In this document: piece after piece, positions 27,193 through 45,996 of the stretch
Position numbering within the stretch: position 1 is the stretch's first letter
Layout of the letters: each line of letters begins with the position of its first letter
Source of the DNA: Serratia grimesii NBRC 13537
GTDB taxonomy: Bacteria > Pseudomonadota > Gammaproteobacteria > Enterobacterales > Enterobacteriaceae
Direction of reading: 5' to 3'
Length of the DNA: 64,000 nucleotides
Assembly: GCF_001590905.1 (NCBI RefSeq)
Contig: NZ_BCTT01000003.1
Location: 248,001 to 312,000 of the forward strand
Notes under the pieces: model-generated
What the model was told of the DNA's origin: nothing
Seen by the model: only the letters and a program-made list of their open reading frames with translations
Databases searched by the model: none
Translations under genes and position numbers: made by a program

Positions 27193-27202
27193 ATGCAGCG
27201 CA

Positions 27203-28612: not shown

Positions 28613-28762
28613 TTGCCCTTAATTACTCACGCGTGTTCTTTATCTTTTATTGCTAAATAACGGCAATAACCCGGGATTTATTGACACGCGTGATACAAAA
28701 CACATTTATTAACCTCACCAGGCTCTACCCTTTGCCCTAAGAACAGGAAACAGGAGTGGAAG

Positions 28763-29182: not shown

Positions 29183-29259
29183 TACTGAGCACGTAAGGCC
29201 ATTTCCCCTTTCCAATGATTGACTAGACTTAGGGGCTCAGTCCGCATAAGGAGCTCCTG

Positions 29260-30294
29260 ATGTCTCAGTCTATGCACCAAAACCGCCGTTTTCTGTTAGC
29301 CTCACGACCACACGGTGAACCTACCGCTGACAATTTCCGCCTGGAAACAGTCCCGACACCGCAACCCGCCGCGGGCCAGGTACTGCTGCGCACCGTTTAT
29401 CTGTCACTTGATCCCTATATGCGCGGTCGTATGAGCGATGCCCCCTCGTATGCACCACCTGTGCAGATCGGCGAAGTGATGGTTGGCGGCACGGTATCAC
29501 GCGTTGTCACATCACAGCATCCCGACTTCAAACCCGGCGACTGGGTATTAGGCTACGACGGCTGGCAGGATTATGCATTGTCTGACGGTAGCGGTTTACG
29601 CAACCTCGGTCCTCACCACGCTCACCCAACACGCCTGCTTGGCGTATTGGGTATGCCTGGCTTCACGGCTTATATGGGCTTGGCGGAGATTGGCCAGCCG
29701 AAACCTGGTGAAACCCTGGTAGTTGCAGCAGCCAGTGGCGCCGTCGGATCGGTGGTCGGGCAAGTCGCTAAACTGAAAGGCTGTCGTGTTGTCGGCGTCG
29801 CCGGTGGTAAAGATAAGTGCCGCTACGTGGTGGAAGAGCTGGGCTTCGATGCCTGTATTGATCACCGTGCACCTGATTTTGCTGCACAGTTGGCCGCAGC
29901 TTGCCCACAGGGCATCGATATTTATTATGAAAACGTCGGTGGTGCCGTGTTCGATGCCGTGATGCCACTGCTGAATACCCAGGCACGTATTCCTGTCTGC
30001 GGCATTATCGCTCACTATAACGCAACCAACTTACCTGCCGGACCGGATCGTCTGCCGATGCTACAAGGGCTGATTTTACGTAAGCGCATCCGCATGCAAG
30101 GTTTTATTATTTTCGATGACTTTGCAGAAGGTTTTGACGCATTCCTGCAGCAAATGAGTGAATGGGTTGAGCAAGGAAAAATCAAATTCCGCGAAGACCT
30201 GGTCGACGGACTTGAGAATGCGCCACAGGCATTTATGGGTCTGTTGCAAGGCAAGAACTTCGGCAAGTTAGTGATCCGCGTCGGCGAAGACTAA
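29260..30294 (+). CDS. NADPH-dependent MDR-family oxidoreductase (CurA/YncB-like)
   Basis: A 344-residue zinc-independent medium-chain dehydrogenase/reductase. It has the N-terminal substrate domain (YLSLDPYMRGRMSD, typical of prostaglandin reductase/CurA-type enzymes) and a nucleotide-binding domain with VAAASGAVGSVVGQVAKLKG and DIYYENVGG. Relatives reduce alpha,beta-unsaturated ketones with NADPH. Cys ligands for catalytic zinc are absent, as expected. It is monocistronic and converges on pcp. Confidence 0.9.
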   Translation: MSQSMHQNRRFLLASRPHGEPTADNFRLETVPTPQPAAGQVLLRTVYLSLDPYMRGRMSDAPSYAPPVQIGEVMVGGTVSRVVTSQHPDFKPGDWVLGYDGWQDYALSDGSGLRNLGPHHAHPTRLLGVLGMPGFTAYMGLAEIGQPKPGETLVVAAASGAVGSVVGQVAKLKGCRVVGVAGGKDKCRYVVEELGFDACIDHRAPDFAAQLAAACPQGIDIYYENVGGAVFDAVMPLLNTQARIPVCGIIAHYNATNLPAGPDRLPMLQGLILRKRIRMQGFIIFDDFAEGFDAFLQQMSEWVEQGKIKFREDLVDGLENAPQAFMGLLQGKNFGKLVIRVGED

Positions 30295-30303
30295 CTCCTG
30301 AAA

Positions 30304-30326
30304 GGGCGCAGTCATCGGCTGCGCCC
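30304..30326. terminator. Bidirectional terminator between the MDR gene and pcp
   Basis: Perfect 8-bp inverted repeat GGGCGCAG/CTGCGCCC with a 7-nt loop in the 42-bp gap between convergent genes. A short T-run follows on the minus strand (CCCTTTC), favouring use by pcp. Confidence 0.75.
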
Positions 30327-30336
30327 TCACAGTGAC

Positions 30337-30984
30337 TCAATGTAAAGCACCGCCAGTCATCGATAAATCCTCTCCGACTGTCAACGTAGTATGCACAATA
30401 CTGCGTACCGCCTCGATCATCGTCGCTAATGCCATACTCGGTTTGCCGGGATGATTAACCGCCAGCTCATGGCTATAAGGGATATGGACAAACCCACCTT
30501 TCATTGCCGGATTCTGCTGAGCGATGTGATGACTCAAACCATAAAAAAGCTGGTTACAGTTATAGGTGCCCGCTGTTTGCGACACCCCTGCCGGAATCCC
30601 CAACTGGCGCAGATGGTGCACAATCGCTTTTACCGGCAGCGTCGAAAAATACCCTACAGGCCCGCCATCCACTACGGGTATATCTATTGGCTGGTTACCG
30701 GCGTTATCAGGAATACGGGCATCGATCAGGTTAACGGCTACCCGCTCAACGGAAATCTCAGCACGCCCGCCGGCCAGCCCAAGACAGATCACCGCCTTTG
30801 GACGCAACGTGTCGATAGCCGTAATCAGCTGCTGGTTAGACAATCCCAGCACGCAGGCCAATTGGCAGACAACCACCTCAGCACCGGCGATCATTTCCCC
30901 CGCTAACGCCTGTGCAACCTGCCATGACGGATTAATCAGATCTCCATCAAATGGCTCAATGCCCGTCACCAATACCCTTTTCAT
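30337..30984 (-). CDS. pcp: Pyrrolidone-carboxylate peptidase (pyroglutamyl peptidase I)
   Basis: Pcp is a cytoplasmic cysteine peptidase of family C15 that removes N-terminal pyroglutamate from peptides. The 215-residue protein starts MKRVLVTGIEPFDGDLINPS (start at 30984, with AAGG at suitable spacing). The catalytic Cys is in AGTYNCNQLFYGL, the His in GFVHIPYSHEL, and the Glu is expected in the LAGGRAEISVERVAVN region. It is divergently arranged with a LysR regulator. Confidence 0.95.
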   Translation of the reverse strand: MKRVLVTGIEPFDGDLINPSWQVAQALAGEMIAGAEVVVCQLACVLGLSNQQLITAIDTLRPKAVICLGLAGGRAEISVERVAVNLIDARIPDNAGNQPIDIPVVDGGPVGYFSTLPVKAIVHHLRQLGIPAGVSQTAGTYNCNQLFYGLSHHIAQQNPAMKGGFVHIPYSHELAVNHPGKPSMALATMIEAVRSIVHTTLTVGEDLSMTGGALH

Positions 30985-31082
30985 CATCACACCTTATGTT
31001 GTTATTGAATCAGCGTGCTCTCAGCCTAAACAACGCGGTATGATTCTGGAAATGGATTATCTATATATAGAGTATTCATAAA

Positions 31083-32015
31083 ATGAATTTATCCAGCGTC
31101 GATCTCAATCTTCTGGTGGTGTTTGAAACCTTGTACCAAACACGCAATGTCACCGCCGCCGGCCGCAGTCTGAACCGCGCCCAGCCTTCGGTCAGTAATG
31201 CACTGACCCGACTGCGCACCCTGTTTGGCGACCCATTGTTTGTTCGCAGCGGCGGCAGCATGATGCCAACCGCACGCGCCCACCAGCTAATGCCGCAGAT
31301 ACACCCCGTACTGGAACAAATTCGACAGGCATTGACGCCGCCGACCCATTTCGATCCGGCTACGGCAAATCAACGCCGCTTTAGGTTAGCAGCCGGCGAC
31401 TATGCCGATATCACGCTGTTGCCTACCATCATGAACCGACTGCGCCAGGACGCACCCGGTATTGATATTCGCGTTTCGCGGCTGGATCGCCGCACGATAG
31501 TGCAACAACTTGAGCGAGGGGAAATCGACATTGCCCTGGGCGGCCATCTGGATGCAGCGGAAGGCATGCGGGTGCAACCGTTATTTAACGAGAGTTTCAT
31601 TTGCATCGCCAACCAACATCACCCGCAGTTTGCTGCCGGGAACTGGAGCTTGCAAGAATATATCAGCCTGCCCCACGCGCTTTACGCACCGTCTGATGAT
31701 GGATCTGCACGCGGGATCATCGATCGGCGTTTGGCTGAAATGGGGTTGGAACGACGGGTTGCCGCGACGTTCTCCCATATTATCGCACTGCCTGCTGTAG
31801 TCGCTGGTAGTGATCTGATCGCCACTCTTGCCTACAGCGTCGCCAAACAGTTTTCCGATCCGAAAAAGGTCTGTTTCCTGCCACTGCCCACGGAGCTGGC
31901 AGTGGCTACGTTTTCGATAGATTTGATCGCCGGTCGACAGGCCAAGCGAGATCCAGCGCTGGCCTGGCTGTGTGACACCATTGCCCAGTTAAACTTTGGC
32001 GAAATCGAGGTTTAA
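31083..32015 (+). CDS. LysR-family transcriptional regulator
   Basis: A 310-residue LysR protein. The N-terminal winged HTH (VDLNLLVVFETLYQTRNVTA and RAQPSVSNALTRLRTLFGDP) is of the NodD/LeuO-like type with PLFVRSGGSMMPTARA, and a periplasmic-binding-protein-like effector domain follows. It is transcribed divergently from pcp with a 98-bp gap, so pcp is one candidate target. Effector unknown. Confidence 0.93.
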   Translation: MNLSSVDLNLLVVFETLYQTRNVTAAGRSLNRAQPSVSNALTRLRTLFGDPLFVRSGGSMMPTARAHQLMPQIHPVLEQIRQALTPPTHFDPATANQRRFRLAAGDYADITLLPTIMNRLRQDAPGIDIRVSRLDRRTIVQQLERGEIDIALGGHLDAAEGMRVQPLFNESFICIANQHHPQFAAGNWSLQEYISLPHALYAPSDDGSARGIIDRRLAEMGLERRVAATFSHIIALPAVVAGSDLIATLAYSVAKQFSDPKKVCFLPLPTELAVATFSIDLIAGRQAKRDPALAWLCDTIAQLNFGEIEV

Positions 32016-32034
32016 TCCCAGCAGTTCGGGATTA
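32013..32034. terminator. Hairpin between LysR gene and sbmC
   Basis: Perfect 7-bp inverted repeat TAATCCC/GGGATTA overlapping the LysR stop codon, in the 23-bp gap between convergent genes. Probably terminates in both directions. Confidence 0.6.
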
Positions 32035-32038
32035 GGCC

Positions 32039-32509
32039 TTATATTTTCTGCACCGTCTGATAAATATCGAGGTCAAAATAACCGTCGGCTTCACAGTCGT
32101 TAAGGTAATGCTCGTAACTGACGCCTGCCGTTGGTTTATAGCCACTGGCTGGCAGTTCTCTCTGATAGAAATCCGTCCAGGCTTTGCCAAAATCGCCATC
32201 GGTGATCCGCACGTTATAGACGCCGTATAACCCGACAGGCAGCATTTGCACAGCAAAACCCTCACTGGCCGTCGTCGGCAGTACAAAGTCATCCGGCACG
32301 GTAAATACCACATCGGCCCGCAACTGTTCAGGTGCCACCTCCGACGGATCGTCCCAATACAGCACCAGCCATTTGCCTATCGGAACGCCCTGTTGTTGCT
32401 GCCAGGCCATCAGCCGTTGGCAGCCCAGAGGAATGGTTTGCGGGTAAGGCCCGACCACCCGCACACCCACCACTTTTTCCGCCGGCTTATCTTCTATTCT
32501 GATCGTCAT
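32039..32509 (-). CDS. sbmC: DNA gyrase inhibitor SbmC/GyrI-like protein
   Basis: A 156-residue stand-alone AraC-effector-binding (GyrI-like) domain protein. Sequence runs VVGVRVVGPYPQTIPLGCQR, WLVLYWDDPSEVAPEQLRAD and YLNDCEADGYFDLDIYQTVQ, and aligns along its length with E. coli SbmC, which protects gyrase from toxins such as microcin B17. The start at ATG 32509 follows GGAG. Some members of this fold instead bind small hydrophobic compounds or hydrolyse cyclopropanoids, so the gyrase role is inferred. Confidence 0.88.
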   Translation of the reverse strand: MTIRIEDKPAEKVVGVRVVGPYPQTIPLGCQRLMAWQQQQGVPIGKWLVLYWDDPSEVAPEQLRADVVFTVPDDFVLPTTASEGFAVQMLPVGLYGVYNVRITDGDFGKAWTDFYQRELPASGYKPTAGVSYEHYLNDCEADGYFDLDIYQTVQKI

Positions 32510-32541
32510 CACTCTCTCCTCACCGCATTAGGGGATGTCGC

Positions 32542-33384
32542 CTAAGCGCCAATTTCAGTGCGCACATCCAGTAGCTCAGGGAAGAAGGTCAACTCCAGCG
32601 CCTTTTTCAGGAAACTGACCCCACTTGAGCCGCCGGTACCCGTTTTAAAACCGATGATGCGTTCCACTGTCTTCATATGACGGAAACGCCAAAGGTGGAA
32701 GCTTTCTTCAATATCCACCAGCTTTTCAGCCATTTCATAGGCTTCCCAATACTTTTGCGGGTGGTCATAAATCTCTTTGAACGCGGGCAACAGGTTCGGA
32801 TTACGCTGATAAGGCTGCGTCCAATCACGTTCGATACACTCTTGAGGGATAGGCAAGCCATGGCGGGACAGATAGAGCAAGTATTCATCGTACAAGCTTG
32901 GCGCTTCGAGGATCGCTTTCAGCGCAGCGTGTTTTTCCGCATCGTTACTGAACACGGCCAGCATTGCCGCATTCTTGTTACCCAGTAAAAACTCGATGGA
33001 GCGGTATTGGTGAGACTGGAAACCTGAGGAGTTGCCCAGCACGTCACGGAACTCAACATATTCCGACGGCGTCAGGGTTTCCAACACCGCCCACTGTTCA
33101 AATAACAGACGTTGGATCTGTTTAACCCGCGCCAGGATCTTGAAGCAGTGGCTGAGTTTGTCTTGCTGTACCAAAGCCCGTGCCGCTTGCAGCTCATGCA
33201 GCATCAATTTCATCCACAGCTCAGACGTCTGGTGCTGCACCACAAAGAGCATCTCATCATGATGCTGCGGGTTAGACAGCGGGTGCTGACAGTCCAGCAG
33301 TTGGTCCAGGCACAGGTAATCACCGTAGCTCATGCGTTTGGAAAAATCGGTGACAATCGCGCTTTCTAATTCCCGTTTGTTCAT
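32542..33384 (-). CDS. kynA: Tryptophan 2,3-dioxygenase
   Basis: A haem enzyme that opens the indole ring of tryptophan to N-formylkynurenine. The 280-residue product starts [20 protein letters not shown] (33384). Family signatures are [40 protein letters not shown] and [19 protein letters not shown], which includes the haem-ligand histidine. No kynurenine formamidase or kynureninase is nearby, so it appears as a solitary first step. It lies 245 bp beyond the eight-gene operon on the same strand; membership is doubtful. Confidence 0.95.
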
Positions 33385-33563
33385 CTGTTCTCTCCGCTGC
33401 GCCCACGACCGGAAGCGGTGTGTAGCGTGCTGCAAACAGAAAACAATAGTACATAACCCCCCGTTCCGAATGACTATAAACGAGAGTTACCTCGCAGATT
33501 TTAGCCTTGAAGAGACGGCGCTCATGTCGGCGAGCGCTTTCTGTTCATCTCCTGCACAGGTTA

Positions 33564-33588
33564 TCCCCGTAGCGCTCATCCACGGGGA
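33564..33588 (-). terminator. Hairpin at the end of the eight-gene operon
   Basis: Perfect 7-bp inverted repeat TCCCCGT/ACGGGGA, 42 bp past the MaoC-like stop. No T-run follows on the minus strand, so it may terminate weakly and allow some read-through to kynA. Confidence 0.45.
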
Positions 33589-33629
33589 CTTCCTCAGCCA
33601 TTCCCACAAGTAAGCATCACCCTCTTTAC

Positions 33630-34145
33630 TCACTCCTGTGCGGGTGAAGATTGAGGTTGAATATAATCCCGGCGCAGCACCATGAAAGATCTTTCAAAGG
33701 TGATCACCGTTTCTCCCGTGGATTTGATCCCCAAGGTTTCCACCGTGATAATGCCTTTATTAGGTTGGGATTTTGAATGGCGTTTCGCCAGGATTTTGCT
33801 CGTTGCGTAGAGCGTATCTCCGACAAAAAGCGGATCTTTTAATCGCACTTTTTCCCACCCCAGGTTAGCGACTGCCCGGGCCGACAATGCCTGCACCGTC
33901 ATACCGCTGACCAGAGCCAACGTAATGCTACTGTTCACCAGAACACGACCATACTCGACCTGGGCACCGTATGCCTGATCGAAATGTAAGGGGTGTTGAT
34001 TCATCGTCAATAAGGTCAACCACGTGTTATCAGCCTCACTGAGCGTACGACCAGGCCAATGTTTAATCGTCATGCCAGGCTCGAAATCCTCGTAATCGCC
34101 ACCGTGCTCTTCAACATATTCGTTGTCGCCAATCCGCCTTAACAT
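33630..34145 (-). CDS. MaoC-type (R)-specific enoyl-CoA hydratase/dehydratase
   Basis: A 171-residue hot-dog-fold protein resembling mesaconyl-/itaconyl-CoA hydratases: FEPGMTIKHWPGRTLSEADN then LLTMNQHPLHFDQAYGAQVE. The latter segment has the catalytic-type Asn/His arrangement. FVGDTLYATSKILAKRHSKS continues the fold. Such enzymes add or remove water at an acyl-CoA double bond. It is the last gene of the operon, overlapping the previous one by 7 bp with AGGGAGA before its ATG. A CitE-like lyase in the same operon is the usual partner of this MaoC subtype. Confidence 0.88.
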   Translation of the reverse strand: MLRRIGDNEYVEEHGGDYEDFEPGMTIKHWPGRTLSEADNTWLTLLTMNQHPLHFDQAYGAQVEYGRVLVNSSITLALVSGMTVQALSARAVANLGWEKVRLKDPLFVGDTLYATSKILAKRHSKSQPNKGIITVETLGIKSTGETVITFERSFMVLRRDYIQPQSSPAQE

Positions 34146-35095
34146 GCCGTTTTCTCCCTGAATTCGTAAAGTGCGAGCGCAGCCGCCGTATCTTCAATAG
34201 CCAAACCTACGCTGCGAAATAGCGTGGTCTGCCCTTCATTAGCAGCAACCTCACCAAGAATAAGAGCGCCGAGTTCATGAAGATGTGCAGGCTGGATATA
34301 CCCTTTATTGAGGGCAGTGCGAACCTCCCCGGCATCTTCCTGAGCAGAAGGCCCTGTTTCCACCACGACAAACGCCGTTTTCAATAAAACGGGGTCCACT
34401 TCAATCGCGTCTTCGTGGGTACCACCGATAATATTCAGATGTGCTCCCGGCACGACCCAATCGGCTGCAATCAAAGGCTCGCAAGAAGACGTGGACGTGG
34501 TGGTACAGATAATCTCTGCACCTTGCACTGCGTCGAACAGGCTCTGACAGATGACAACCTGAGCCGCCGTCACCGTCCGCGCCCACTGCACGAACGCTTC
34601 GGTTCTGGCTATTGTGCGGGAATAAATCCGCACTCGGGCAATCTGACGTACGGCAAGCATCGCCAACAAGGTTGCCCGAGCCTGTACACCCGCCCCCAGA
34701 ATGGCAAGGTCAGCGGCCCCCGCAGGAGCACACAAATGGGTTGCCAAGCCTGCAACCGCGCTGGTTCTCACGGCGGTTAACGCAGCACCATCGAGTAACG
34801 CCATCATCTGACCCGTATTGATGTCCGTTAGCACCACCACGCCGTGAATCAGCGAAAGCCCCTTCGTGGAATTACCGGGCGTCAGCGTGGTTATCTTGAC
34901 ACTGGCAACACCGCGTTTCATCCACCCCGCCGGGCTGATTAACATTTCGGAAGGACCATGGTTCAATAACATTCGTGACGGTGACTGTTCTTTCCCACTA
35001 CGTAAATCCTGGAACACGTCACTCAGGCTGGCCATGACATGCCGAAGTGGGGTATTCCCCGACATTTCGGCTTCACTTATGATTCGCATCGTCAC
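34139..35095 (-). CDS. Ornithine cyclodeaminase / mu-crystallin-family enzyme
   Basis: A 318-residue NAD(P)-binding protein of the OCD/mu-crystallin family. The substrate-binding part contains [17 protein letters not shown] (conserved Lys) and [20 protein letters not shown] (conserved Arg). The Rossmann fold is [14 protein letters not shown], and [14 protein letters not shown] holds the family's acidic position. Family members cyclise ornithine, reduce cyclic imines, dehydrogenate alanine or form amino-acid conjugates in siderophore and antibiotic pathways. The substrate cannot be told from sequence. It probably starts at GTG 35095, overlapping the aldolase stop (GTGA); ATG 35089 is the alternative. 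Confidence 0.88.
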
Positions 35096-36093
35096 AAGGC
35101 GACCCTCTTCAATTCAGCCACCACCTCAACGATAAGGTCTTCTTGCCCGGCAACGACTTGTCGTTTTCCCAGTTCGAAAAATACATCACGTGGATCGACC
35201 CCTGCGGTACCTGCATGGTTGATGACCGGATTTTTGAAACCCGAAAATACGCCTGCCAGGCCGCTAACAATGCCCAGAGAGTCGATCATCGGTGGGGTAA
35301 CCATTAACTCGCGGGCCGCAAGCTCTGCGGCATCAAGGAAGCGATAAAGATCTATACCCGTTTTAAACGCCAGACGCTCTAACACTGGCACCAAAACTTC
35401 CAGTTGGGTATTCCCCGCTCCAGCGCCGAATCCTCGCGCGCAGCCATCAATAATGGTGGCCCCAGCTTGCGCAGCAGCCACCGAGTTAGCTACCGCCATC
35501 CCCAAATTGTTATGCCCGTGGAAAATCAGCGGCACATCAACCTGCATTCGCATCGCCGTGATGCGCGCAGTAACATCCTGAGGCAGGAGACTGCCGGCAG
35601 AATCCATGATGCCGACAGCCTGTGCGCCGTACCCCACTAACTGTTCGGCCTGCACAGCCAATTCCATAGGCGTTGCCATGTGGCTCATCATCAGCACCGC
35701 GTGCGCTTGCGCCCCCTGCTCACGCAACCATCCCACGTGGCGTTCGGCGAGGGTAGCTTCCGTACAATGCGTGCCAATGCGAACCACATCCGTGCCGTGG
35801 GCAAGCGCTTTTGACAAGTCAGCGATGGTTCCCCAACCGGGCAACATAAACACGCCCATCCTGGTGTTTACCAATGCCTCACGCACGATAGCCAGCATCT
35901 CATCATCGCTTAATGCGGCGCGCCCTACCTGGTAAGAGGACGCGCCAAGCCCGTTCCCGTGACCAACTTCAACAATTGATACGCCCGTTTGATCGACAGC
36001 GGTCGCGTAGTCTCGCAACTGAGCCGCGGTGAGTTGGTGTTTGACCGCATGCTGGCCATCACGCAGGGTTGAATCGTTAATTAGGATAGCCAT
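35092..36093 (-). CDS. 4-hydroxy-2-oxovalerate aldolase-type enzyme
   Basis: A 333-residue DRE-TIM metallolyase of the MhpE/DmpG type. Visible are the metal/catalytic motif [31 protein letters not shown], the metal-binding [18 protein letters not shown] and [19 protein letters not shown]. The family splits 4-hydroxy-2-oxoacids into pyruvate and an aldehyde, or joins them in reverse. Start at ATG 36093, after GGAGGG; it overlaps the dehydrogenase stop by 17 bp. Normally this pair ends a meta-cleavage pathway, but none of the preceding enzymes is present here. Confidence 0.93.
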
Positions 36094-36964
36094 TAGCGCC
36101 CTCCATTTTGTTTCGAAAAGCGGCATACTGTTCAGCAACCAAAATGGCGGCGGAATTGATCAGATCCAGGTTCCCCGCGTATTCAGGCATCACACTGCTA
36201 CTGGCGACAACCTCCAGAGAAATCGACACTCGCCCTTCCGTGACCTTGCACGCTGTCAACGTATAACCCGCTGAGAATTCACGCACCGCGGCAGCCGCAG
36301 CTGCAACAACAGGCGTTATCTGTTCCATTGTCGCGCCCGGGATATCGGCAAAAATCGTGACTCTGAACATGGCTGGCGGTGCTGCTGGACTGATGTTGAG
36401 GATTGCCTTGGTATTTGCCACACCGGTGAACGCGCTGAGTGCAATCTGCGTTGTTTCCACATATTCATCGATGTTGATTCGGGTCGCTCGCCCGAGAATG
36501 TCACTGGCGACCGTCGCTACCACTTCGATATCGTTAATGACAAAGTGCTGACTAAGCGCATGCAGGATAGGTATCGATGCCTGCCCGCCACAACTGATTA
36601 GACTGACATTGCGATCGGCCAACGCGTCTGTTCCCGTCACTGTTGGTACTATCATTTTCCCAACATGACTGGGTGTTAAGTCGATCAGTAACGTGCCTAG
36701 CGGGCGTAACAGTTCCCAATGTTTGACATGTGACATCGCGTTAGTGGCGTCGAACACCACATCGAAGGGTTTTGGCGCGGCCAAAATAGCGTCAATACCG
36801 CTAGCACTGGTCGGGCAGCCCAACTGGGCTGCGATTTCAAGACCGGCGGAATCCTTGTTACGCCCTGCGAGCAATTGGCAATTAAGTAAGGGTGAACGGT
36901 GTATTTTATTGACCAGATCCATGCCAATGGCACCAGTCCCGATAACGGCAACGGAAAGCGTCAT
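36077..36964 (-). CDS. Acylating aldehyde (acetaldehyde) dehydrogenase
   Basis: A 295-residue protein of the MhpF/DmpF family, which converts an aldehyde plus CoA and NAD to acyl-CoA and channels its substrate from the adjacent aldolase. The N-terminal Rossmann motif is [17 protein letters not shown], and the catalytic Cys is in [17 protein letters not shown]. The usual TSA-x-AH motif reads [14 protein letters not shown], a divergence near the NAD site. Start at ATG 36964 (AGGAG before it), with a 4-bp ATGA overlap with the CitE-like gene. Confidence 0.92.
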
Positions 36965-37824
36965 GGGTTGCTCCTGTCGAATCGCGCAGCCCACGCCTTG
37001 CCTAACCCCAGAGTCGTCCGGGCCATACGGGCAAAAGGTGGCCCCACCATGTGCCCATCCAGCAAGGCAATTCCCCCTTCGGCTGCCTGGACGGCATCGG
37101 TAATGCGACGTGCGATCAATAACGCTTCTTCATTCGGCCGCAGCGCTGTATTGATCAACTCAAGTTCGCTGGGATGCACGGTGGCTTTACCGTGGAAACC
37201 CAAATCTTTGGCGTTTTGAATTTCGTTTGCCAATACCTCGGGTTCGGAAAGACGGTAATTGGCGGTATCAATGCAACCAATGCCGTGTCTGGCACTCGCC
37301 AAAACCATGGCCTGACGAGCCGCCAACATCCCAGACCAGGTAATCTGTACACCAAGGGTGGCGGCCAAATCTGCGGAGCCAAAAATCAATCCGTCAGCCA
37401 CTGACGCCACATTATCAAGATCGGTAATGGCTTCTACAGTCTCTATGGTCAGATAAATTTCTGGGTACTTGCCTGCGGAAGCGAACGTTTCACGCAGAAA
37501 AATAACCTCGGCAGGCGACCTGACCATGGACATGACGATGAAACCCGGTGTGGCGCTGCCGCTGCAAAGCATGACTACATCATGTAACGCATCAATCGTA
37601 CCCAGTGCATTGATTCGCACGGCAATATTTGCAGACGCTGGAGCATTATCAAGAGCAGTACGGCAGATCACCCTTCCTTCGGCTTTGGCTGGGCCTGGAA
37701 CGGAATCTTCCAAATCAATCAAATGGACATCAGCATCATAAGACAGCGCCTTAACAACGCGGTTAAGTGATAAAGCCGGCGTGTACAGAATGCTACGGGG
37801 AATAGCGCGTGTGATATCCGTCAT
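36961..37824 (-). CDS. CitE-like lyase (HpcH/HpaI family)
   Basis: A 287-residue TIM-barrel protein of the citrate lyase beta/malyl-CoA lyase family: RSILYTPALSLNRVVKAL, the metal-binding LIDLEDSVPGPAKAEGR, LTIETVEAITDLDNV, IFGSADLAATLGV and GFHGKATVHPSELELIN. Such enzymes make or break a bond between a 2-oxoacid or glyoxylate and an acyl-CoA, such as citramalyl-CoA or malyl-CoA. It is coupled to the oxoamine synthase gene by a 4-bp overlap. Genuine citrate lyase is excluded, because CitD and CitF are absent. Confidence 0.9.
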   Translation of the reverse strand: MTDITRAIPRSILYTPALSLNRVVKALSYDADVHLIDLEDSVPGPAKAEGRVICRTALDNAPASANIAVRINALGTIDALHDVVMLCSGSATPGFIVMSMVRSPAEVIFLRETFASAGKYPEIYLTIETVEAITDLDNVASVADGLIFGSADLAATLGVQITWSGMLAARQAMVLASARHGIGCIDTANYRLSEPEVLANEIQNAKDLGFHGKATVHPSELELINTALRPNEEALLIARRITDAVQAAEGGIALLDGHMVGPPFARMARTTLGLGKAWAARFDRSNP

Positions 37825-39044
37825 TGAGGCGCCCTCACTTCAGCCAGAATCTTGCACAAACTTCGAATTTGCTCTTCTGTTTGCCCGGCACGCATCATGA
37901 CCCGCAAGCCAGCGGTGCCTTTAGCGACAATAGGGAAAAATACCGGGGAGACATAAAAACCGGCCTCGATTACCCGACGCCCTTCTTTGATCACCGTCTC
38001 ATCGCTCATCGGCACCAAACGGATCGGGTAAGTATTGCCGCTTTGCTCTGTTGGTATCAGTGAGTCGAAGAGTGAAATGTTGTCGTACAGTTTCTTCTGC
38101 AACAGCGGCAATTCAGCCGTTCGGTGAATGTCTGCGGAGGCCAGGCTCGCACCAATCGCAGCCGTGTTTAGATTTTGTGAATAGTTGAGCCCACCGCCAA
38201 AACGCTCGACCAGACGTAGCATCTTCTGCGAATAGCCGTTAAGCAATATTGCCGCACCGCTGGTACCGAAAGCTTTGTTGAGCGTGACCACCATTATGGT
38301 GTTCTCATTCAACGCCGGGCTGTGCGAGCGAACATAGCCGATCCCGCGCTCGCCATACGCGGAGATAGAGTGGGAATCATCGTAAAACACCATTAGGCCG
38401 TATTTGTCTTGTAGCTCGGCCAACTCTTTAACCGGCGCATATCCCCCCAGGCTATCGCTGCCATCAACCACGTAGCAGACCCGTTCGTATTTCTTGCAGC
38501 AGTCCTTGATGAAGTCGAGGTCATGGTAATTGCAGGTAACAACCTCGGTTTCATCGGCACAGGCAGGTTTAGCCGCAGCCAGCGACACATGAGCGTGCTT
38601 GTCGAAGATCATTAAAGGCCGCACACCGTTACCCAAATGCCCGGAGGCGATCAAAGGGAGCAGTCCCCCACTGATGCTGCTGGCCGACACGCCGCTGAGA
38701 ACATCGGCCTGGAACAGTTCGCCGAGCGACTCCTCCAGCGCTTTCAGCACCGGGAGCTGAACCCGGCTACGGGCGATGCAGTGATCCAGCACGCCATAAC
38801 GACGAATGGCATCGATGGCCCCCTCGATGACCTTCGGATGGGAATCCAGATTCAGGTAAGAACAACAGCTAAAGTTGATAAACTGATGGCCACTTTGGGT
38901 CGACAAAAGATCATTATCGAGCCCGGCAATAATCCCTGCGAGCCCATTCTGCTCTGACATATCCCAGAAAGGGTTACCAATACCGATAGCTTTGTCATTG
39001 TTGCGAAACTGGTTAGTTGGGACAATCCTCTTACGGCTGGTCAT
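37821..39044 (-). CDS. Alpha-oxoamine synthase (PLP-dependent)
   Basis: A 407-residue fold-type I aminotransferase-like enzyme. The alpha-oxoamine synthase pattern is clear: FSCCSYLNLDSHPKVIEGA, CYVVDGSDSLGGYAPVKELA, MVFYDDSHSISAYGERGIG and the PLP lysine in VVTLNKAFGTSGAAIL. The family condenses an amino acid with an acyl-CoA (or acyl carrier), losing CO2, to give an alpha-aminoketone. DDSHS is closer to serine palmitoyltransferase and CqsA than to KBL/BioF (DDSHA). I start at MTSRKRIVPTN (39044), whose ATG shares a base with the previous stop (TGATG) after AAGGAAGGAAC. The longer frame to 39173 lies inside the upstream gene. Confidence 0.93.
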   Translation of the reverse strand: MTSRKRIVPTNQFRNNDKAIGIGNPFWDMSEQNGLAGIIAGLDNDLLSTQSGHQFINFSCCSYLNLDSHPKVIEGAIDAIRRYGVLDHCIARSRVQLPVLKALEESLGELFQADVLSGVSASSISGGLLPLIASGHLGNGVRPLMIFDKHAHVSLAAAKPACADETEVVTCNYHDLDFIKDCCKKYERVCYVVDGSDSLGGYAPVKELAELQDKYGLMVFYDDSHSISAYGERGIGYVRSHSPALNENTIMVVTLNKAFGTSGAAILLNGYSQKMLRLVERFGGGLNYSQNLNTAAIGASLASADIHRTAELPLLQKKLYDNISLFDSLIPTEQSGNTYPIRLVPMSDETVIKEGRRVIEAGFYVSPVFFPIVAKGTAGLRVMMRAGQTEEQIRSLCKILAEVRAPQ

Positions 39045-39970
39045 CAAGTTCCTTCCTTCTTGGTAGGTTCTGGTTGATAGTTGTAGATGCCTTTGAACTT
39101 GCGGTAGGCGGCAGTGTAGAGTGCGGAATACAAGACATAGGGACGGCGCAGGATTTTTAGATCCCACAACCAAAAATTCACGTTGATGTTTAGATCGTCT
39201 AAAGATTCAGCCTGATGCCACCATCCCAGCGGCAAATAGAGCATCTCGCCGGGCTCTAAAATAAAATCACGCTTTTGTGATATTTTCGCCGCCAGGCGGG
39301 GAAAACGTTGGGGGTCAATATTATTAAAATCGAAGACCTGTGACTTATCGCCAAACCCCTTGAGAATAGAACGCGGGTAGTAATCCCGGCGGCCGGGTGG
39401 AAAAAGAACGAATCGCTTTCTTCCCTGCAGAGAAATATTAAAATTCTCCAATTCGTCAAAGTGGCTCTGTGTGAAAACTCCGTGATAACTGATCCACAAA
39501 TTAGCCGCATTCAACCCACGCCGAGAGGCTAACAACGAAAACGCGTCGAATCCGAGAATGGCATTAATATCTTCCGGACGGTGCATAATATTGGAAACCA
39601 CGCGATACCACGTATTATTGTCTTTCTGATATTCTTCATTCCCCAAAAAACCACGCAGCTGTATTTTCATGGTTTTCCAACGCTCAGTATTTTCCTTATT
39701 ACTGGCTTCCCGGAATAAGGTGACGTTATCATCACCCAAGCGCTGTGCGATAAGATCATTCGCGCTATGACTGATATCCAGGGGTAAATCTGTGATAATC
39801 ACCGGGACATCGGCTCGAAATATGGCCTCAACGCCCATGGCAACAAATTCATTAAAGGTAATACGGGGAACGGGAATACCCGTTGTTAACTGGTTCACGA
39901 TTGCCGTTTTCCTGTCTCGGTAATAATATTGAGATAGCCCATTAAATTGGGCTTGGCGTTGACTTCTCAC
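39044..39970 (-). CDS. JmjC/cupin_8-type Fe(II)- and 2-oxoglutarate-dependent oxygenase
   Basis: A 308-residue single-domain JmjC-like protein. The Fe(II) facial triad is visible: HxD in THSHFDELENF-type context (TQSHFDELENFNISL) and the distal His in LYLPLGWWHQAESLD. GRKRFVLFPPGRRDYYPRS matches the usual 2-oxoglutarate-binding region. Stand-alone bacterial members hydroxylate peptides, amino acids or metabolites. The start is uncertain: GTG 39970 has no clear ribosome-binding site and overlaps the MFS gene by 29 bp, while GTG 39898 follows AGGA and would remove the overlap. Confidence 0.87.
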   Translation of the reverse strand: MRSQRQAQFNGLSQYYYRDRKTAIVNQLTTGIPVPRITFNEFVAMGVEAIFRADVPVIITDLPLDISHSANDLIAQRLGDDNVTLFREASNKENTERWKTMKIQLRGFLGNEEYQKDNNTWYRVVSNIMHRPEDINAILGFDAFSLLASRRGLNAANLWISYHGVFTQSHFDELENFNISLQGRKRFVLFPPGRRDYYPRSILKGFGDKSQVFDFNNIDPQRFPRLAAKISQKRDFILEPGEMLYLPLGWWHQAESLDDLNINVNFWLWDLKILRRPYVLYSALYTAAYRKFKGIYNYQPEPTKKEGT

Positions 39971-41168
39971 TGAGTAATGACTGGCTGAACAGACTGGCTA
40001 ACAAGGCGAGTACGCCGGCAGCAACGGCGATCCAGGCGACGTGAGCGGCTCCTGCCTGATCAGACAGTTGCCCGCCTACCGATACCCCTAAGGAAAACCC
40101 CAGCCATCCGGCACTGGACAACCAGGAGAACCCTTCAGACAGGCACCCTTTCGGGGTTAGGGATTCCAAAAGGTTACTGCAAGTGATTAATAGCGGCGCC
40201 ACCGATATACCGGCTATAAACGCAGAGATGCCCATAATGATGGGGGCATTGGTGAACACGAGAGGAAGCGTCCCTGCACACAACGTAGCGGAAGTGATAA
40301 GCAGTAACCGTGGTTGCGGTATAGACCAGTTCATCGCACCATAACAGATGCCACCCACCAGACTACCCGCTGCACAAAGCGACAACAGCACGCCGGCCAG
40401 AGTGGGATTGCCCGCCTCTTTTGCAAAGGCAATCATCATGACGTCGATAGCACCGAGGAAGATGCCCACTGCGGCATAGGAAATCATCAGCCGACGAACC
40501 CACGCCATGCTAATGGCCTTGCGGGTATTTTTATCGGTTTTCTGCACAATAACGGGCTCTGAACGCCGATGCAGCACCAGTGCCATAGAACCACTGAACG
40601 TAAGTATGGCGCACAAGATCAAACCTGCGGCAGGGTGTAACACGGTTGCTAAAACAATGGCTATTAGCGGCCCCAATAAGAAAATAATTTCATCGAGAAC
40701 CGTCTCTAATGCATACGCCGTTCGTAATGCCTCATCGGTAACCATCGACGCCCAACGCGTCCGAATAAATCCATCAACCGGTACGGATGAACAACCAATA
40801 CAAATAGCCGCAGCCATGATCGCCCATAGATGTGCGTTGAATAGCACTAAGACGATAAGTAGCGCTATTGCAATGACATGACAGCAGCTGGTGGTAATAA
40901 GGACCTTTCGCTGACTTATTTGGTCAGCAAATCGACCCAAAACGGGACTGGCTAACGCTTGTGTAATCATTAGCGTTCCAGCGACAGTGCCTGCGATCCA
41001 CAGCGAGTTAGTGGTTGCAGAAATTAACATGATGCAGCTAATAGAGCGCATCGCCACAGGAAATCGAACGAGCAGACCAAATAATGAAAGCGTAGCATGT
41101 CCAGGTCCGGACAGTAATCTAGTATAGGAAGCAAAACTGAATGTAGACTCAAGGTCTTTTGTTTCCAT
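39942..41168 (-). CDS. MFS transporter, probable exporter of the operon product
   Basis: A 408-residue protein with about 12 hydrophobic segments. The MFS loop 2-3 motif is recognisable as ASPVLGRFADQISQRKVLIT. Other stretches (FVTNAPII-type loops and GFSLGVSVGGQLSDQ) fit MFS drug/metabolite exporters. It is the first gene of the operon, transcribed from the 598-bp gap shared with the M24 peptidase. An exporter encoded ahead of biosynthetic enzymes suggests the product leaves the cell or is toxic to it. Confidence 0.9.
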   Translation of the reverse strand: METKDLESTFSFASYTRLLSGPGHATLSLFGLLVRFPVAMRSISCIMLISATTNSLWIAGTVAGTLMITQALASPVLGRFADQISQRKVLITTSCCHVIAIALLIVLVLFNAHLWAIMAAAICIGCSSVPVDGFIRTRWASMVTDEALRTAYALETVLDEIIFLLGPLIAIVLATVLHPAAGLILCAILTFSGSMALVLHRRSEPVIVQKTDKNTRKAISMAWVRRLMISYAAVGIFLGAIDVMMIAFAKEAGNPTLAGVLLSLCAAGSLVGGICYGAMNWSIPQPRLLLITSATLCAGTLPLVFTNAPIIMGISAFIAGISVAPLLITCSNLLESLTPKGCLSEGFSWLSSAGWLGFSLGVSVGGQLSDQAGAAHVAWIAVAAGVLALLASLFSQSLLSEKSTPSPI

Positions 41169-41389
41169 AAAGGACTCTCGTTAATAAAATTAGGTATACG
41201 CCAGCGACCAGATATATCAATTAAAATATATCCAATCACTTATCATAAGATGCGTACAACGCGGAAAATCATTAATTTATAAGATTCACATTACCGCTGG
41301 CGTGTAATTAGCACTCAGAATTAACCCCACTTTACCTACAGCGTAGGCAGCTTAGTATTTTTAATATTCACAGCATCGTGATTGATAAT

Positions 41390-41406
41390 GATTCATGCCC
41401 CTCTTG
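41390..41406. promoter_or_regulatory. Fur-box-like sequence
   Basis: GATTGATAATGATTCAT contains GATAATGAT, the first half of the Fur consensus, then a partial match to the second half. Such AT-rich matches occur by chance, so this is only a candidate. Confidence 0.25.
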
Positions 41407-41624
41407 GAAAATTAGAAAATCAAATAAGAACATTTAATAAGATGGGCATTAAGAATTAGCAACGCTAATCAATATTTACAAGAGCATTTTTGCATCACAA
41501 TACTGCATTTATGCATTGTGATTAAAATACAATAGGTTACCTTATGATTCATGTGAAAATATAATTCCTGGTTAGCCTATAACACCATTTACTCCAAAAT
41601 CTGTTGGGTGGCCTCGTTTGCATC

Positions 41625-41663
41625 ACGGCACCGGAGAAAACTGTGCCGTAATCGACAGTTTTC
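41625..41663 (+). promoter_or_regulatory. Overlapping, mutually exclusive hairpins in the M24 peptidase leader
   Basis: Stem A pairs ACGGCAC (41625-41631) with GTGCCGT (41643-41649). Stem B pairs GAAAACTGT (41636-41644) with ACAGTTTTC (41655-41663) and is followed by TTATC. Both are perfect and they share bases, so only one can form at a time, which is the arrangement of an attenuator or riboswitch-like switch. A third stem CTGGG/CCCAG (41722-41738) precedes the ribosome-binding site AAGGAG. Confidence 0.45.
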
Positions 41664-41766
41664 TTATCTATTGAAGCCAAGTATTGGTACTGCGCTTTAC
41701 TTATGATGAAGGTTTAGCATGCTGGGACATTGACCCAGATATTTCACATTTCACAAGGAGAAAAGC

Positions 41767-42993
41767 ATGGCTACAGGCATTGGCGGTTGCACGCCGCAAG
41801 ACGCCCTGGAACAGTTGCAACCGTTAACGGACAATCCGCCTGACATTGCCGCCAGTGAGTACCGACAACGCATTCAACAAGCACAACACCTGATGCGCCA
41901 AAACGGCATTGACGCCTGCTACATCAATGCGGGTAGCAATTTGCTCTATTTTACCGGGACCCATTGGTCGCCCAGCGAGCGCATGGTGGGCGCAGTGATC
42001 CCAGCTGAAGGGGAAGTCGCCTATATTGTGCCCTGGTTTGAAATCGGTACGTTCAAAGACGCGCAAGTTGTTGAGGCCGAGATATTCAGTTGGCACGAAG
42101 AGGAAGACCCCTATCAGCTGTTCTTCACTGTTCTGGCTTCTCGTGGGCTGGCTGGCCACGGTCGTCAGTACAAAATAGCCATTTGCGAAACCGCGTCAGT
42201 GACACTGTTCCTTGGTTTGCAGCAGCATGCAGGCAACATGAGCTTGATCAGCTCACAGCCTATCACCGGGCACTGCCGTAGCCGTAAATCGGCAACGGAA
42301 ATCGCACTGATGCAGACGGCCAATAACATTACGTTGCGTGTACAGCAGGCCGCAGCAAGTATATTGCGTCCAGGTCTCACCGCCAGAGAGCTGGTCGATT
42401 TCGTCGATAAAGCCCATCGTAAAATGGGCACATCAGGGTCTTACTTTTGTATTGCGCTATTTGGATCGGATAGTGCGTTCCCGCACGGTGTGAAAGAGCC
42501 TAAGCCGTTGCAGCACAACGATGTCGTGCTGCTCGATACCGGTTGCCGCTACAAAGATTATTTGTCTGATATTACCCGCACCTATGTGTACGGTGACGCC
42601 AGCGAGCGGCAACGTTTCGCGTGGCAAGCCGAACATGAAGCGCAGGCCGCGGCGTTTGCGGTTATCGCACCGGGTGTGCCCTGCCATAAAGTGGATGATG
42701 CTGCGCGCGAAGTGCTGGTCTCTCATGGCTTCGGGCCAGATTATCAGTTGCCGGGCTTGCCACATCGTACCGGACACGGTATTGGGCTGGACATTCATGA
42801 AGCCCCCTATCTGATCCGTAAACACGCGCAGCCGCTCGATGTCGGCATGTGTGCCAGCATCGAACCCATGTTATGCCTGCCGGGTGAGTTCGGTATTCGC
42901 CTTGAGGACCATTTTTACGTCACTGAGAACGGAGCTCGCTGGTTTACCCCACCAGCAAAATCCATTGACGATCCTTTCGATATAGCCCCCTGA
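41767..42993 (+). CDS. M24-family metallopeptidase (Xaa-Pro peptidase-like)
   Basis: A 408-residue protein with an N-terminal creatinase-like domain (YRQRIQQAQHLMRQNGIDAC) and the C-terminal pita-bread catalytic domain. All five metal ligands are present: Asp in VVLLDTGCRYKD, Asp in LSDITRTYVYG, His in TGHGIGLDIHEAP, Glu in ASIEPMLCLPG and Glu in GIRLEDHFYV. Substrates of this family include Xaa-Pro peptides, creatine and other amide-bonded small molecules. It reads divergently from the eight-gene operon. A strong AAGGAG precedes the ATG. Confidence 0.92.
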   Translation: MATGIGGCTPQDALEQLQPLTDNPPDIAASEYRQRIQQAQHLMRQNGIDACYINAGSNLLYFTGTHWSPSERMVGAVIPAEGEVAYIVPWFEIGTFKDAQVVEAEIFSWHEEEDPYQLFFTVLASRGLAGHGRQYKIAICETASVTLFLGLQQHAGNMSLISSQPITGHCRSRKSATEIALMQTANNITLRVQQAAASILRPGLTARELVDFVDKAHRKMGTSGSYFCIALFGSDSAFPHGVKEPKPLQHNDVVLLDTGCRYKDYLSDITRTYVYGDASERQRFAWQAEHEAQAAAFAVIAPGVPCHKVDDAAREVLVSHGFGPDYQLPGLPHRTGHGIGLDIHEAPYLIRKHAQPLDVGMCASIEPMLCLPGEFGIRLEDHFYVTENGARWFTPPAKSIDDPFDIAP

Positions 42994-43198
42994 AAGCACA
43001 TCCGGGCGGTGCTACCGCTCGGATTTATACATCGAGGAAAACAACCGATAAACACCGAACGTGGATAAGAGGTCACACATCCCCCTGGGGCCTCATTGCA
43101 TCACCACAGATGCCCACGATCAAACTGCGGTTAATCGGTTGGCGTAAACGTGAAAATAGATTAGTTTTAAGCTCTGACTTTCTAATGCACCGGATGCT

Positions 43199-44189: not shown

Positions 44190-45023
44190 TTACAGCAGCA
44201 GCGCCAGTTCCATTGCCGTGCGCTGCAACTGTGGCAATACCCGCTCACGCAATTCAGCCGACGATATTTGCGAGGCGTTGACGCCCACGTTCATCGCCGC
44301 CACGACCCCACCTTTACGTGAATGCATGGGCACCGCGATCGAACGCAAGCCTATCTCCAATTGCTGATCATTGATGGCATAACCCTGTCGGCGCACTTTC
44401 GCCAACTGTTCACGCAGTTGCTGTGCATTGGTCACGGTGAACTCGGTCAGCGGTTCGAAGTTCACTCGCGACAGATAATCTTCCAATTGCTCTTCATTCA
44501 GCGCGCTAAGAAGCACCAACCCCATGGACGTCGCGTAGGCGGGCAAACGGCTGCCCCGACCCAGATCGATTGTCATGATGCGCTTAACCGATGCACGGGC
44601 GATATAGAGGATATTGTCACCGTCCAGCGTCGCTACCGAGCAAGATTCGTTTAGCAGTTTACTGAGGTAATCCAACGAATTTTGCGCGGCTTTCGCCAAT
44701 TCGGACGAGGAAAGATAGGCATGACCAATGGTCAGCACCCTTGGCAGCAGCCGGTAATGGCGGCCATCGGGGCAATGCACAAAACCCAAAGCACGCAGGG
44801 TGTACAGACATCGACGCACCGCTGCACGCGGAATACCGGTGATTTGACTGATTTGAGAAACAGACATTTGTGAATACTGTGGCTGAAAAGCCTGCAGTAC
44901 CTCCAACCCTCTGGCCAATGAGGCCATAAAATTAGGGTCCCCTTTGTATTGATCGTTGCTTAAATCACTGATTTCCTGCAAACGACGCAATTCTCCAGCG
45001 CCAAATTCCGACACGTCACTCAT
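44190..45023 (-). CDS. IclR-family regulator of the beta-ketoadipate genes (PcaR/PcaU-like)
   Basis: A 277-residue IclR protein. The N-terminal winged HTH (FMASLARGLEVLQAFQPQYS then ISQITGIPRAAVRRCLYTLR) and the C-terminal effector domain (ILYIARASVKRIMTIDLGRG and GSRLPAYATSMGLVLLSAL) have the pattern of PcaR/PcaU/PobR activators that sense beta-ketoadipate or related aromatics. I start at MSDVSEFGAGELRRL (45023), after GGGAG. It is divergent from pcaIJ and is the only regulator next to the 11-gene benzoate operon. Confidence 0.92.
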   Translation of the reverse strand: MSDVSEFGAGELRRLQEISDLSNDQYKGDPNFMASLARGLEVLQAFQPQYSQMSVSQISQITGIPRAAVRRCLYTLRALGFVHCPDGRHYRLLPRVLTIGHAYLSSSELAKAAQNSLDYLSKLLNESCSVATLDGDNILYIARASVKRIMTIDLGRGSRLPAYATSMGLVLLSALNEEQLEDYLSRVNFEPLTEFTVTNAQQLREQLAKVRRQGYAINDQQLEIGLRSIAVPMHSRKGGVVAAMNVGVNASQISSAELRERVLPQLQRTAMELALLL

Positions 45024-45190
45024 CCTGATCTCCCATTCAATCAACCTGCCTATTATATACCCGTCGCCTTTCACGTTGCAGCGCTGTTACCGGCGTTCGT
45101 TCACTCCAGCCACTGACGAAAACCCCGAGCCCGGTGTCAGTGAGTGATTTAGCTACCTGCATCACAAAATTCATCGCCAACTTATCAATG

Positions 45191-45309: not shown

Positions 45310-45996
45310 ATGATCGATAAAAGTGTGGCATCCGCAGACGCCGCTGTCGCTGATATCCCTGACGGCACAACCATTATGGTCGGTGGTTTTGGCCCTGCCG
45401 GTCAGCCTTATGCGCTGTTGGATGCGCTGATTCGTCATCGTCCGCGCGATCTGACGTTGATCAGCAATAACGCCGGCAACGGGGATTTTGGCCTGGCAGC
45501 GCTGCTGAAGGCCGGCTGCGTCCGTAAGGTGATCTGCTCATTCCCACGTCAGTCCGACTCTTGGGTATTTGACGATTTATACCGCCGTGGCGAATTGGAG
45601 CTCGAGTTGATCCCTCAGGGTAATCTGGCGGCACGCATTCAGGCTGCCGGCGCTGGGCTCGGTGGTTTTTATACCCCAACAGGCTATGGCACCGAACTGG
45701 CACAGGGTAAGGAAACCCGCGAAATTGACGGTCGGCACTATGTATTTGAACTGCCGCTGAAGGCCGACTTTGCGCTGATCAAGGCTGACAGGGCCGATCG
45801 TTGGGGCAACCTGCTGTACTACAAAACCGGGCGAAACTTCGGGCCGATTATGGCGATGGCCGCCGCCTGCACAATTGCCGAGGTCAATCGGATGGTGCCA
45901 CTGGGTGAATTGGATCCCGAAAACATTATTACGCCAGGGATTTTCGTCCAGCGCCTGGTGACCACACCTGACCACTCTGCGCAGTTGTCGGCTTAA
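45310..45996 (+). CDS. pcaI: 3-oxoadipate CoA-transferase, alpha subunit
   Basis: With its partner it moves CoA from succinyl-CoA to 3-oxoadipate. The 228-residue subunit has the family I CoA-transferase features MVGGFGPAGQPYALLDALIR and LTLISNNAGNGDFGLAALL. AGGAG precedes the ATG. It is the first gene of an 11-gene plus-strand operon running from 3-oxoadipate breakdown back to benzoate oxidation, and is followed by its beta subunit after 11 bp. Confidence 0.95.
   Translation: MIDKSVASADAAVADIPDGTTIMVGGFGPAGQPYALLDALIRHRPRDLTLISNNAGNGDFGLAALLKAGCVRKVICSFPRQSDSWVFDDLYRRGELELELIPQGNLAARIQAAGAGLGGFYTPTGYGTELAQGKETREIDGRHYVFELPLKADFALIKADRADRWGNLLYYKTGRNFGPIMAMAAACTIAEVNRMVPLGELDPENIITPGIFVQRLVTTPDHSAQLSA

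Follow-up and report, generated by a model that had tools for sequence, protein, structure and literature searches.

An eight-gene Serratia grimesii operon with ketomemicin-type core enzymes as a candidate pathway to a ketomethylene pseudodipeptide

A stretch of 64,000 nucleotides from Serratia grimesii NBRC 13537 (the window, to which positions refer) carries an operon of eight closely packed genes on its minus strand, running from 41168 down to 33630. The operon encodes an MFS transporter, a JmjC-type oxygenase, an alpha-oxoamine synthase, a CitE-like lyase, a DmpF-type dehydrogenase, a DmpG-type aldolase, a reductase of the ornithine cyclodeaminase (OCD) family and a MaoC-type hydratase (Table 1). 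The CitE-like enzyme, the synthase and the MaoC-type enzyme are homologues of KtmA, KtmB and KtmC from the ketomemicin (ktm) pathway. Judged by this homology, ketomethylene-type chemistry is likely to form the core of the Serratia pathway. We propose that the genes constitute a biosynthetic operon related to ktm, whose product would be a ketomethylene pseudodipeptide with a CO-CH2 unit in place of the peptide bond; such a core, working in the biosynthetic direction, seems reasonably probable.

According to passages of PMC11943689, the ktm genes encode an aldolase (ktmA), a pyridoxal phosphate-dependent C-acyltransferase (ktmB), a dehydratase (ktmC), an ATP-grasp ligase (ktmD), an amidinotransferase (ktmE) and a dehydrogenase (ktmF). 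Loci of this type were searched for in a sample of 250 Micromonosporaceae genomes. Synthase matches were observed in 12 genomes, and all 13 matching loci were examined: five are of the window type (67-70% identity) and eight are relatives at 40-45%. The locus L117 carries, in this order, genes for an amidinotransferase, a PGM1-type ATP-grasp ligase, an MDR dehydrogenase, CitE, the synthase and MaoC, and is a complete ktm locus. Similarity searches detected members of all six ktm families in L117, L119, L121, L123 and L124. The ktm-type branch comprises 11 fetched loci, three of them from Actinokineospora, and in each of the 11 both CitE and MaoC lie within about 3 kb of the synthase. Compared with L117, the window proteins show 36% (CitE), 43% (synthase) and 50% (MaoC) identity. 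The KtmB protein of L117 scores 540 bits in the NF005697 model, where the window synthase reaches 551, both above the cut-off. KtmA and KtmC of L117 score 243 bits on the RipC model and 184 bits on the RipB model, below the cut-offs like the CitE and MaoC proteins of the window. The window trio corresponds to ktmA-ktmB-ktmC, and the expected bond is therefore a ketomethylene. This modifies the statement in a preliminary description of the operon that no described pathway has this gene set. For the eight-gene set as a whole, no description was found in searches of the open-licence literature.

The two types are distinct. In a maximum-likelihood tree of 84 synthase rows, with long branches flagged, the ktm-type rows form a separate group of 11 (support 94/92). 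The genome that holds the ktm locus L117 also holds a window-type cluster, L118; because both occur in one genome, they are parallel coexisting systems, probably with different products. The window type is a separate branch beside ktm, which gives a partial precedent for its gene set.

The preliminary description had left room for the eight genes to occur independently in relatives. A neighbourhood scan gave a different result. It covered 61 loci, obtained in a single search of genome contigs that used an alignment of 16 sequences and two short peptide patterns and is not a census; some loci stop at contig edges, so that counts of missing families are upper bounds. The complete eight-family set is present in 37 of the 61 loci. 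Thirteen loci lack the MFS gene only, four lack both MFS and JmjC, and seven hold other subsets. By family, CitE and OCD are each found in 60 loci, MaoC in 58, DmpF and JmjC in 55 each and MFS in 40. DmpG or a related HMGL protein is found in 56, one of which (L066) has a homocitrate-synthase-like HMGL protein, leaving 55 with DmpG. The loci belong to Actinomycetota (49), Serratia (5), Pseudomonas protegens (2) and Xenorhabdus, Trinickia, Burkholderia, Rhizobium and Nostoc (1 each). The set is conserved beyond chance, which supports the view that the eight genes form one functional unit. A second locus in Streptomyces goshikiensis (L050) holds only JmjC and synthase of the eight families, together with ligases of the C4 and C4b types and an MFS-like gene.

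The reductive step appears to be carried out by different enzymes in the two types. Among 77 loci, with thresholds of 60 and 100 bits, 65 have OCD only, nine have a KtmF-type MDR only, none has both and three have neither (L050, L122 and L136). This split largely agrees with the two tree branches; within the ktm group, OCD occurs only in the basal locus L125. The best solved chain for the window OCD protein is the pyrroline-2-carboxylate reductase 6t3e (142 bits), while the ornithine cyclodeaminase 1u7h reaches 72 bits, and the closest solved relatives are imine reductases, not cyclodeaminases. From this pattern we infer that OCD takes the reductive place of KtmF. It had been suggested that the OCD-like enzyme reduces or cyclises an imine. 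Given the replacement of KtmF, cyclisation of an imine is no more likely than a reduction within the same route. At the Serratia loci L009-L014, a search at locus level gave no matches to KtmD, KtmE or KtmF except for two weak CurA-like MDR matches (L009 and L012; 28 and 36% identity, 57 and 50 bits), which fell below the threshold and probably represent the CurA-type reductase at 29260-30294.

The aldolase differs from its ordinary relatives at two active-site positions (Leu to Phe and Tyr to Phe) at which engineered changes in BphI alter or invert stereochemistry. Aligned with L86/Y285/Y289 of the solved aldolase 4jn6, the window DmpG reads F/L/F; no second DmpG was found in its genome. The triplet F/L/F occurs in 53 of 59 cluster DmpG rows; one row has F/M/F, three have H/L/F (P. 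protegens and Trinickia) and two (L066 and L069) are unreadable. In contrast, five DmpG proteins from outside such clusters in other Gammaproteobacteria show L/Y/Y (four) or I/Y/Y (one), and a fragment shows -/Y/Y. By alignment (plus one), L86 and Y289 of 4jn6 are taken as L87 and Y290 of BphI. Passages of PMC3962088 describe that Y290F abolishes stereocontrol in BphI and that L87N or L87W combined with Y290F gives a (4R)-specific enzyme; none of the variants in these passages carries Phe at position 87. By analogy, DmpG is predicted to produce the (4R) or a mixed configuration. The preliminary description held that all enzymes keep their key catalytic residues. This is true of the HxD, Lys and distal His motifs for metal and cosubstrate in JmjC (across 60 rows), of the Cys motif of DmpF and, in DmpG, of the counterparts of R15, D16 and H19 of 4jn6, but not of the stereocontrol Tyr of DmpG and the neighbouring Leu, both of which are Phe.

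DmpF and DmpG were not found in six of the 61 loci (L017, L023, L048, L050, L060 and L066; L048 reaches a contig end, on its downstream side only), and five of these six keep other core genes. For this reason the pair looks like a separable feeder. The chance that it supplies a 2-oxo acid is, in our estimate, evenly balanced. Of the earlier suggestion that both lyase pairs supply or modify an acyl-CoA, the feeding of the synthase by CitE and MaoC is supported; the two pairs do not look interchangeable. Two catabolic assignments were considered and dismissed. For meta-cleavage catabolism the equivalog scores are reached, but the Leu87/Tyr290 pair is replaced by two Phe residues and the operon holds no other gene of that pathway; neither the eight genes nor the two flanking neighbours tested, one on each strand, encode an upstream hydratase or ring-cleavage enzyme. 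For itaconate degradation, the window MaoC and CitE proteins stay below the equivalog cut-offs of RipB and RipC (Table 1).

In the proposed pathway, DmpF would convert a short acyl-CoA to an aldehyde for transfer to DmpG. Addition of this aldehyde to pyruvate by DmpG would yield a 4-hydroxy-2-oxo acid, whose configuration is probably the unusual (4R) or mixed. The KtmA-like CitE enzyme would then transfer an acetyl or malonyl unit from CoA onto the 2-oxo group, and the KtmC-like MaoC enzyme would remove water to form a substituted enoyl-CoA. A reductive step by OCD, as by KtmF in the making of ketomemicin, may act on the enoyl compound or on a later imine. Condensation of the acyl-CoA with an amino acid, accompanied by release of CO2, would fall to the KtmB-like synthase, hydroxylation to the JmjC enzyme, whose nearest solved chains are FIH and JMJD5, and export of the product to the MFS protein. 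For ketomemicin, the enzymology was reportedly described by Kawata in 2017. Directly observed are the order and families of the genes, their joint conservation, the homology to ktm, the substitutions in DmpG and the linkage of M24 (see below); all pathway steps, those of OCD and JmjC included, are inferred, as is the product, and no prediction was obtained for the amino acid used by the synthase. The scheme retains from the preliminary description the C-C bond formation centred on the synthase, the CitE/MaoC feed and the biosynthetic direction, and revises the specifics.

Additional genes accompany the cluster in relatives, and the amide ligases among them speak for the proposed reading. A family without Pfam match, C4, lies near the cluster in 43 of the 61 loci. 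A structure model based on 19 sequences, of which three are distant, shows a glutathione-synthetase fold (mean pLDDT 79.0, pTM 0.82, the best of five models, the others having a mean pLDDT of 54.8-71.9), with 8fbz as best match (E 7e-13, TM 0.60). According to this model, C4 is an amide ligase other than a nonribosomal peptide synthetase (NRPS) in the cluster neighbourhood. The assumption that C4 is needed everywhere fails for Serratia, Xenorhabdus and Rhodococcus. In two Nocardia genomes (G051 and G057) the C4 ligase is distant from the cluster. Carbamoyltransferases adjoin the clusters of P. protegens, Trinickia and Nostoc (L061, L063, L064 and L069), and in the P. protegens and Trinickia versions an SDR is added and JmjC is missing.

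A gene for an M24 metallopeptidase lies divergently upstream of the operon, and the unit, whose extent had been drawn to end with the MFS gene, probably includes it as well. The best solved chains for this protein are annotated 'Proline dipeptidase' (5cik/4r60, 396 bits). Within the genus, the M24 gene is present in 7/7 operon-bearing and 2/18 operon-free genomes. It accompanies 33 of the 61 loci and 38 of 66 when L118, L136 and L141-L143 are added, and its placement over these 66 is of five kinds. In these 38 it is upstream and divergent (22), downstream and co-directional (11) or upstream and co-directional (5). Two subfamilies are involved, an actinobacterial aminopeptidase-P type (AMP_N) and a proline-dipeptidase type in Serratia, Burkholderia and one gammaproteobacterium; members of the window subfamily, 53-54% identical, sit inside the clusters L066 and L136. 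A linked M24 gene was found in 15 of the 19 actinobacterial genomes searched, always together with at least one further copy elsewhere; three of the four genomes without a linked gene have one copy. Since the linked gene accompanies a further copy elsewhere and is linked to the operon in the genus, its simplest role would be that of a spare target for the product. That an Xaa-Pro peptidase is this target is a tentative and rather doubtful suggestion.

Several observations weigh against the proposed pathway. At the Serratia locus there is no ligase, no amidinotransferase and no KtmF reductase, and C4 is missing in 7/7 operon-bearing genomes of Serratia as well as in Xenorhabdus and Rhodococcus; the Serratia product would hence be simpler than ketomemicin. 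CitE and KtmA share only 36% identity, and OCD enzymes are known for the reduction of C=N bonds and not of C=C bonds. The M24 gene is missing near 28 of the 61 loci, and one actinobacterial genome (G083) has two copies, neither of them linked. Furthermore, lone synthases with 38-42% identity occur without CitE or MaoC nearby (L137-L140, of which L137 and L140 lie near contig ends), so that the synthase family is not confined to ketomethylene chemistry. The notion that every KtmB-like synthase is accompanied by CitE and MaoC fails as well, as four of five further Pseudomonadota matches lack both nearby. The lone synthases may belong to other amino-ketone pathways. They would also suit a biosynthetic route to a different alpha-aminoketone, with the lyase pairs doing no more than providing or regenerating acetyl-CoA and pyruvate and the synthase coupling an amino acid such as L-glutamate with a simple acyl-CoA in the manner of Alb29. 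The Alb29 structures match the window synthase at 308 bits, about as closely as KtmB, and Alb29 takes L-glutamate and small acyl-CoAs (passages of PMC11906848). On the other hand, the presence of CitE beside 60 and MaoC beside 58 of the 61 synthases is hard to square with mere recycling of acetyl-CoA, and DmpF/DmpG are dispensable where CitE stays (L017, L023 and L048). We consider this alternative quite improbable.

The operon could also run in the opposite direction, with MFS importing a hydroxylated amino ketone, the synthase cleaving it with CoA in the way of glycine C-acetyltransferase partners, and MaoC/CitE and DmpG/DmpF breaking the remainder down to acetyl-CoA and pyruvate. All lyase products would indeed be central metabolites, DmpF and DmpG pass catabolic equivalog cut-offs, and a PcaR-type IclR regulator is encoded at 44190-45074. 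However, catabolism does not agree with the homology to the biosynthetic ktm trio, with the loss of the ordinary Tyr and Leu from DmpG or with the ATP-dependent ligases in 43/61 loci and the carbamoyltransferases linked in relatives, and oxoamine synthases are described in passages of PMC11906848 as irreversible C-C-forming enzymes. It therefore seems very doubtful that the operon is catabolic. For the M24 gene alone, a role in maturation or housekeeping, or a coincidental position, rather than a spare target, comes somewhat short of an even chance. A peptidase that trims off a protecting residue is known for blasticidin S (PMC4664946), and the occurrence of M24 without the operon in 2/18 genus genomes, like its absence near 28/61 loci, would fit housekeeping or chance. 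Both M24 subfamilies are, however, annotated as Xaa-Pro specific and sit upstream, downstream or inside the clusters in varied orientation, and Serratia has the M24 gene but no C4 ligase for a peptide that would need trimming.

With regard to its origin, the operon was probably acquired by the Serratia/Xenorhabdus lineage from Actinomycetota, because the synthases of the window, Serratia and Xenorhabdus form one clade of seven rows (support 100/100) inside a 60-row clade (100/99) whose remaining rows are all actinobacterial. We are less sure of the exact actinobacterial neighbour: its support is 92/76, and that of the surrounding 59-row fork is 96/77, both under the starred level. The synthase is rare in Pseudomonadota, as only six of 398 sampled genomes, its own included, have it (E 1e-60 or better). 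At 90% identity or more it occurs in 7/25 genomes of the genus, again counting its own, and the closest named synthase is that of Serratia sp. PL17 (98% identity). In 7/7 operon-bearing genomes the synthase is flanked by tryptophan 2,3-dioxygenase at a distance of about 5 kb and, on the opposite side, by M24 at 2.5-4 kb, and a block from about 32542 to 43025 is collinear in 5/5 named Serratia loci. The dioxygenase gene (32542-33435) was considered as a part of the operon and rejected, being present in 21/25 genus genomes when the operon is in only seven. When operon-free genomes were compared, the side of the dioxygenase proved to be conserved (28165-33509), and no right-hand border was found in the stretches fetched from them. 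The GC content is 0.524 for the operon and 0.534 for the whole window.

The families and order of the eight genes given in the preliminary description were confirmed by the listing of open reading frames and by profile searches (Table 1). Its overlaps of 1, 4, 4, 17, 4 and 7 bp were reproduced from the listing of start codons. JmjC and the synthase overlap by 1 bp (ATG 39044), the 4-bp overlap of CitE and DmpF uses the DmpF start ATG 36964, and the 17-bp overlap of DmpF and DmpG uses ATG 36093. As had been noted, the junction between MFS and JmjC depends on the JmjC start, with an overlap of 29 bp for GTG 39970 and none for GTG 39898 or ATG 39838. A scan for promoter-like sequences performed at chance level (10 found, 9.2 expected), as did a terminator scan.

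Table 1. Features of the operon and its upstream flank in the window
Feature	Position	Strand	Basis
Intergenic region MFS/M24, divergent	41169..41766	.	GC 0.36; no promoter assigned
MFS transporter, first operon gene, likely exporter	39942..41168	-	PF07690 78 bits; TIGR00900 'H+ antiporter' 70 bits, below cut-off
Cupin_8/JmjC-type 2-oxoglutarate oxygenase	39044..39970	-	PF13621 108 bits; start GTG 39970, GTG 39898 or ATG 39838
Alpha-oxoamine synthase, KtmB/Alb29 branch	37821..39044	-	NF005697 551 bits (cut-off 342)
CitE-like C-C lyase/ligase, KtmA-like	36961..37824	-	PF03328; RipC model 180 bits (cut-off 375)
Acylating aldehyde dehydrogenase, DmpF type	36077..36964	-	TIGR03215 283.6 bits (cut-off 282.25); start ATG 36964 or GTG 36994
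4-Hydroxy-2-oxoacid aldolase, DmpG type	35092..36093	-	TIGR03217 360.5 bits (cut-off 286); PF07836 communication domain; start ATG 36093 or TTG 36138
OCD/mu-crystallin-family reductase	34139..35095	-	PF02423 209 bits
MaoC-type hydratase/dehydratase, KtmC-like	33630..34145	-	PF19315, PF01575; RipB model 198 bits (cut-off 340)
M24 metallopeptidase, Xaa-Pro dipeptidase type, divergent neighbour	41767..42993	+	PF00557 188 bits, PF01321

Elsewhere in the window, the region 26001-29000 has a low GC content (0.41 compared with 0.53), and the genes beside it are presumably flagellar-motor-like, judging from their sequence. The gene at 45310-45996, near the PcaR-type regulator, resembles that of a CoA-transferase subunit. 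In a Burkholderia ubonensis cluster (L066:4720-11245), two oxoamine synthases stand in tandem, the homocitrate-synthase-like HMGL protein replaces DmpG and M24 is embedded; L136 is a relative of this cluster with a ligase. This type could be an arphamenine-like branch.

In its most far-reaching form, which we regard as unlikely, our proposal would describe a third natural ketomethylene family, found in Actinomycetota, Pseudomonadota and Cyanobacteriota, whose C-terminal half would be made with (4R) configuration by DmpF/DmpG and whose members would block M24 enzymes as mimics of the Xaa-Pro transition state, the spare peptidase conferring immunity. If the proposed ketomethylene pathway itself holds, Serratia, Xenorhabdus and dozens of actinobacteria would carry a further uncharacterised class of pseudopeptides made without NRPS. 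The clusters would also offer a natural test of engineered aldolase stereochemistry, a swap of reductases (OCD for MDR) within one pathway logic and a forecast of the target, Xaa-Pro peptidases, that can be read from the gene neighbourhood.

Among known systems, the predicted product would resemble the arphamenines of the Gram-negative Chromobacterium violaceum, ketomethylene pseudopeptides that inhibit aminopeptidase B (passages of PMC11943689). No description of an arphamenine gene cluster for comparison was found in the open-licence literature. The MaoC and CitE proteins belong to the same superfamilies as the products of the itaconate genes ripB/ripC (ich/ccl), which are their best named models. 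As in DmpF/DmpG and BphJ/BphI of aromatic meta-cleavage, both partners and the communication domain are present and both equivalog cut-offs are passed; unlike in DmpG and BphI of that pathway, the active-site Leu and Tyr are both Phe. Alb29 (albogrisin) and DynZ (dynaplanin) are likewise stand-alone oxoamine synthases of natural-product pathways, and the Alb29 structures are the closest solved relatives; according to passages of PMC9239090, heterologous production of dynaplanin strictly requires no genes other than dynZ and dynY. In contrast to the window, the Alb29 and DynZ systems lack the CitE/MaoC core. The ktm clusters, known from Salinispora, Streptomyces mobaraensis and Micromonospora, share this core with the window in the form of KtmA, KtmB and KtmC. 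The Serratia locus differs from them in that its trio is split by DmpF, DmpG and OCD, that JmjC and MFS are present in addition, and that its synthase stands on a separate branch.

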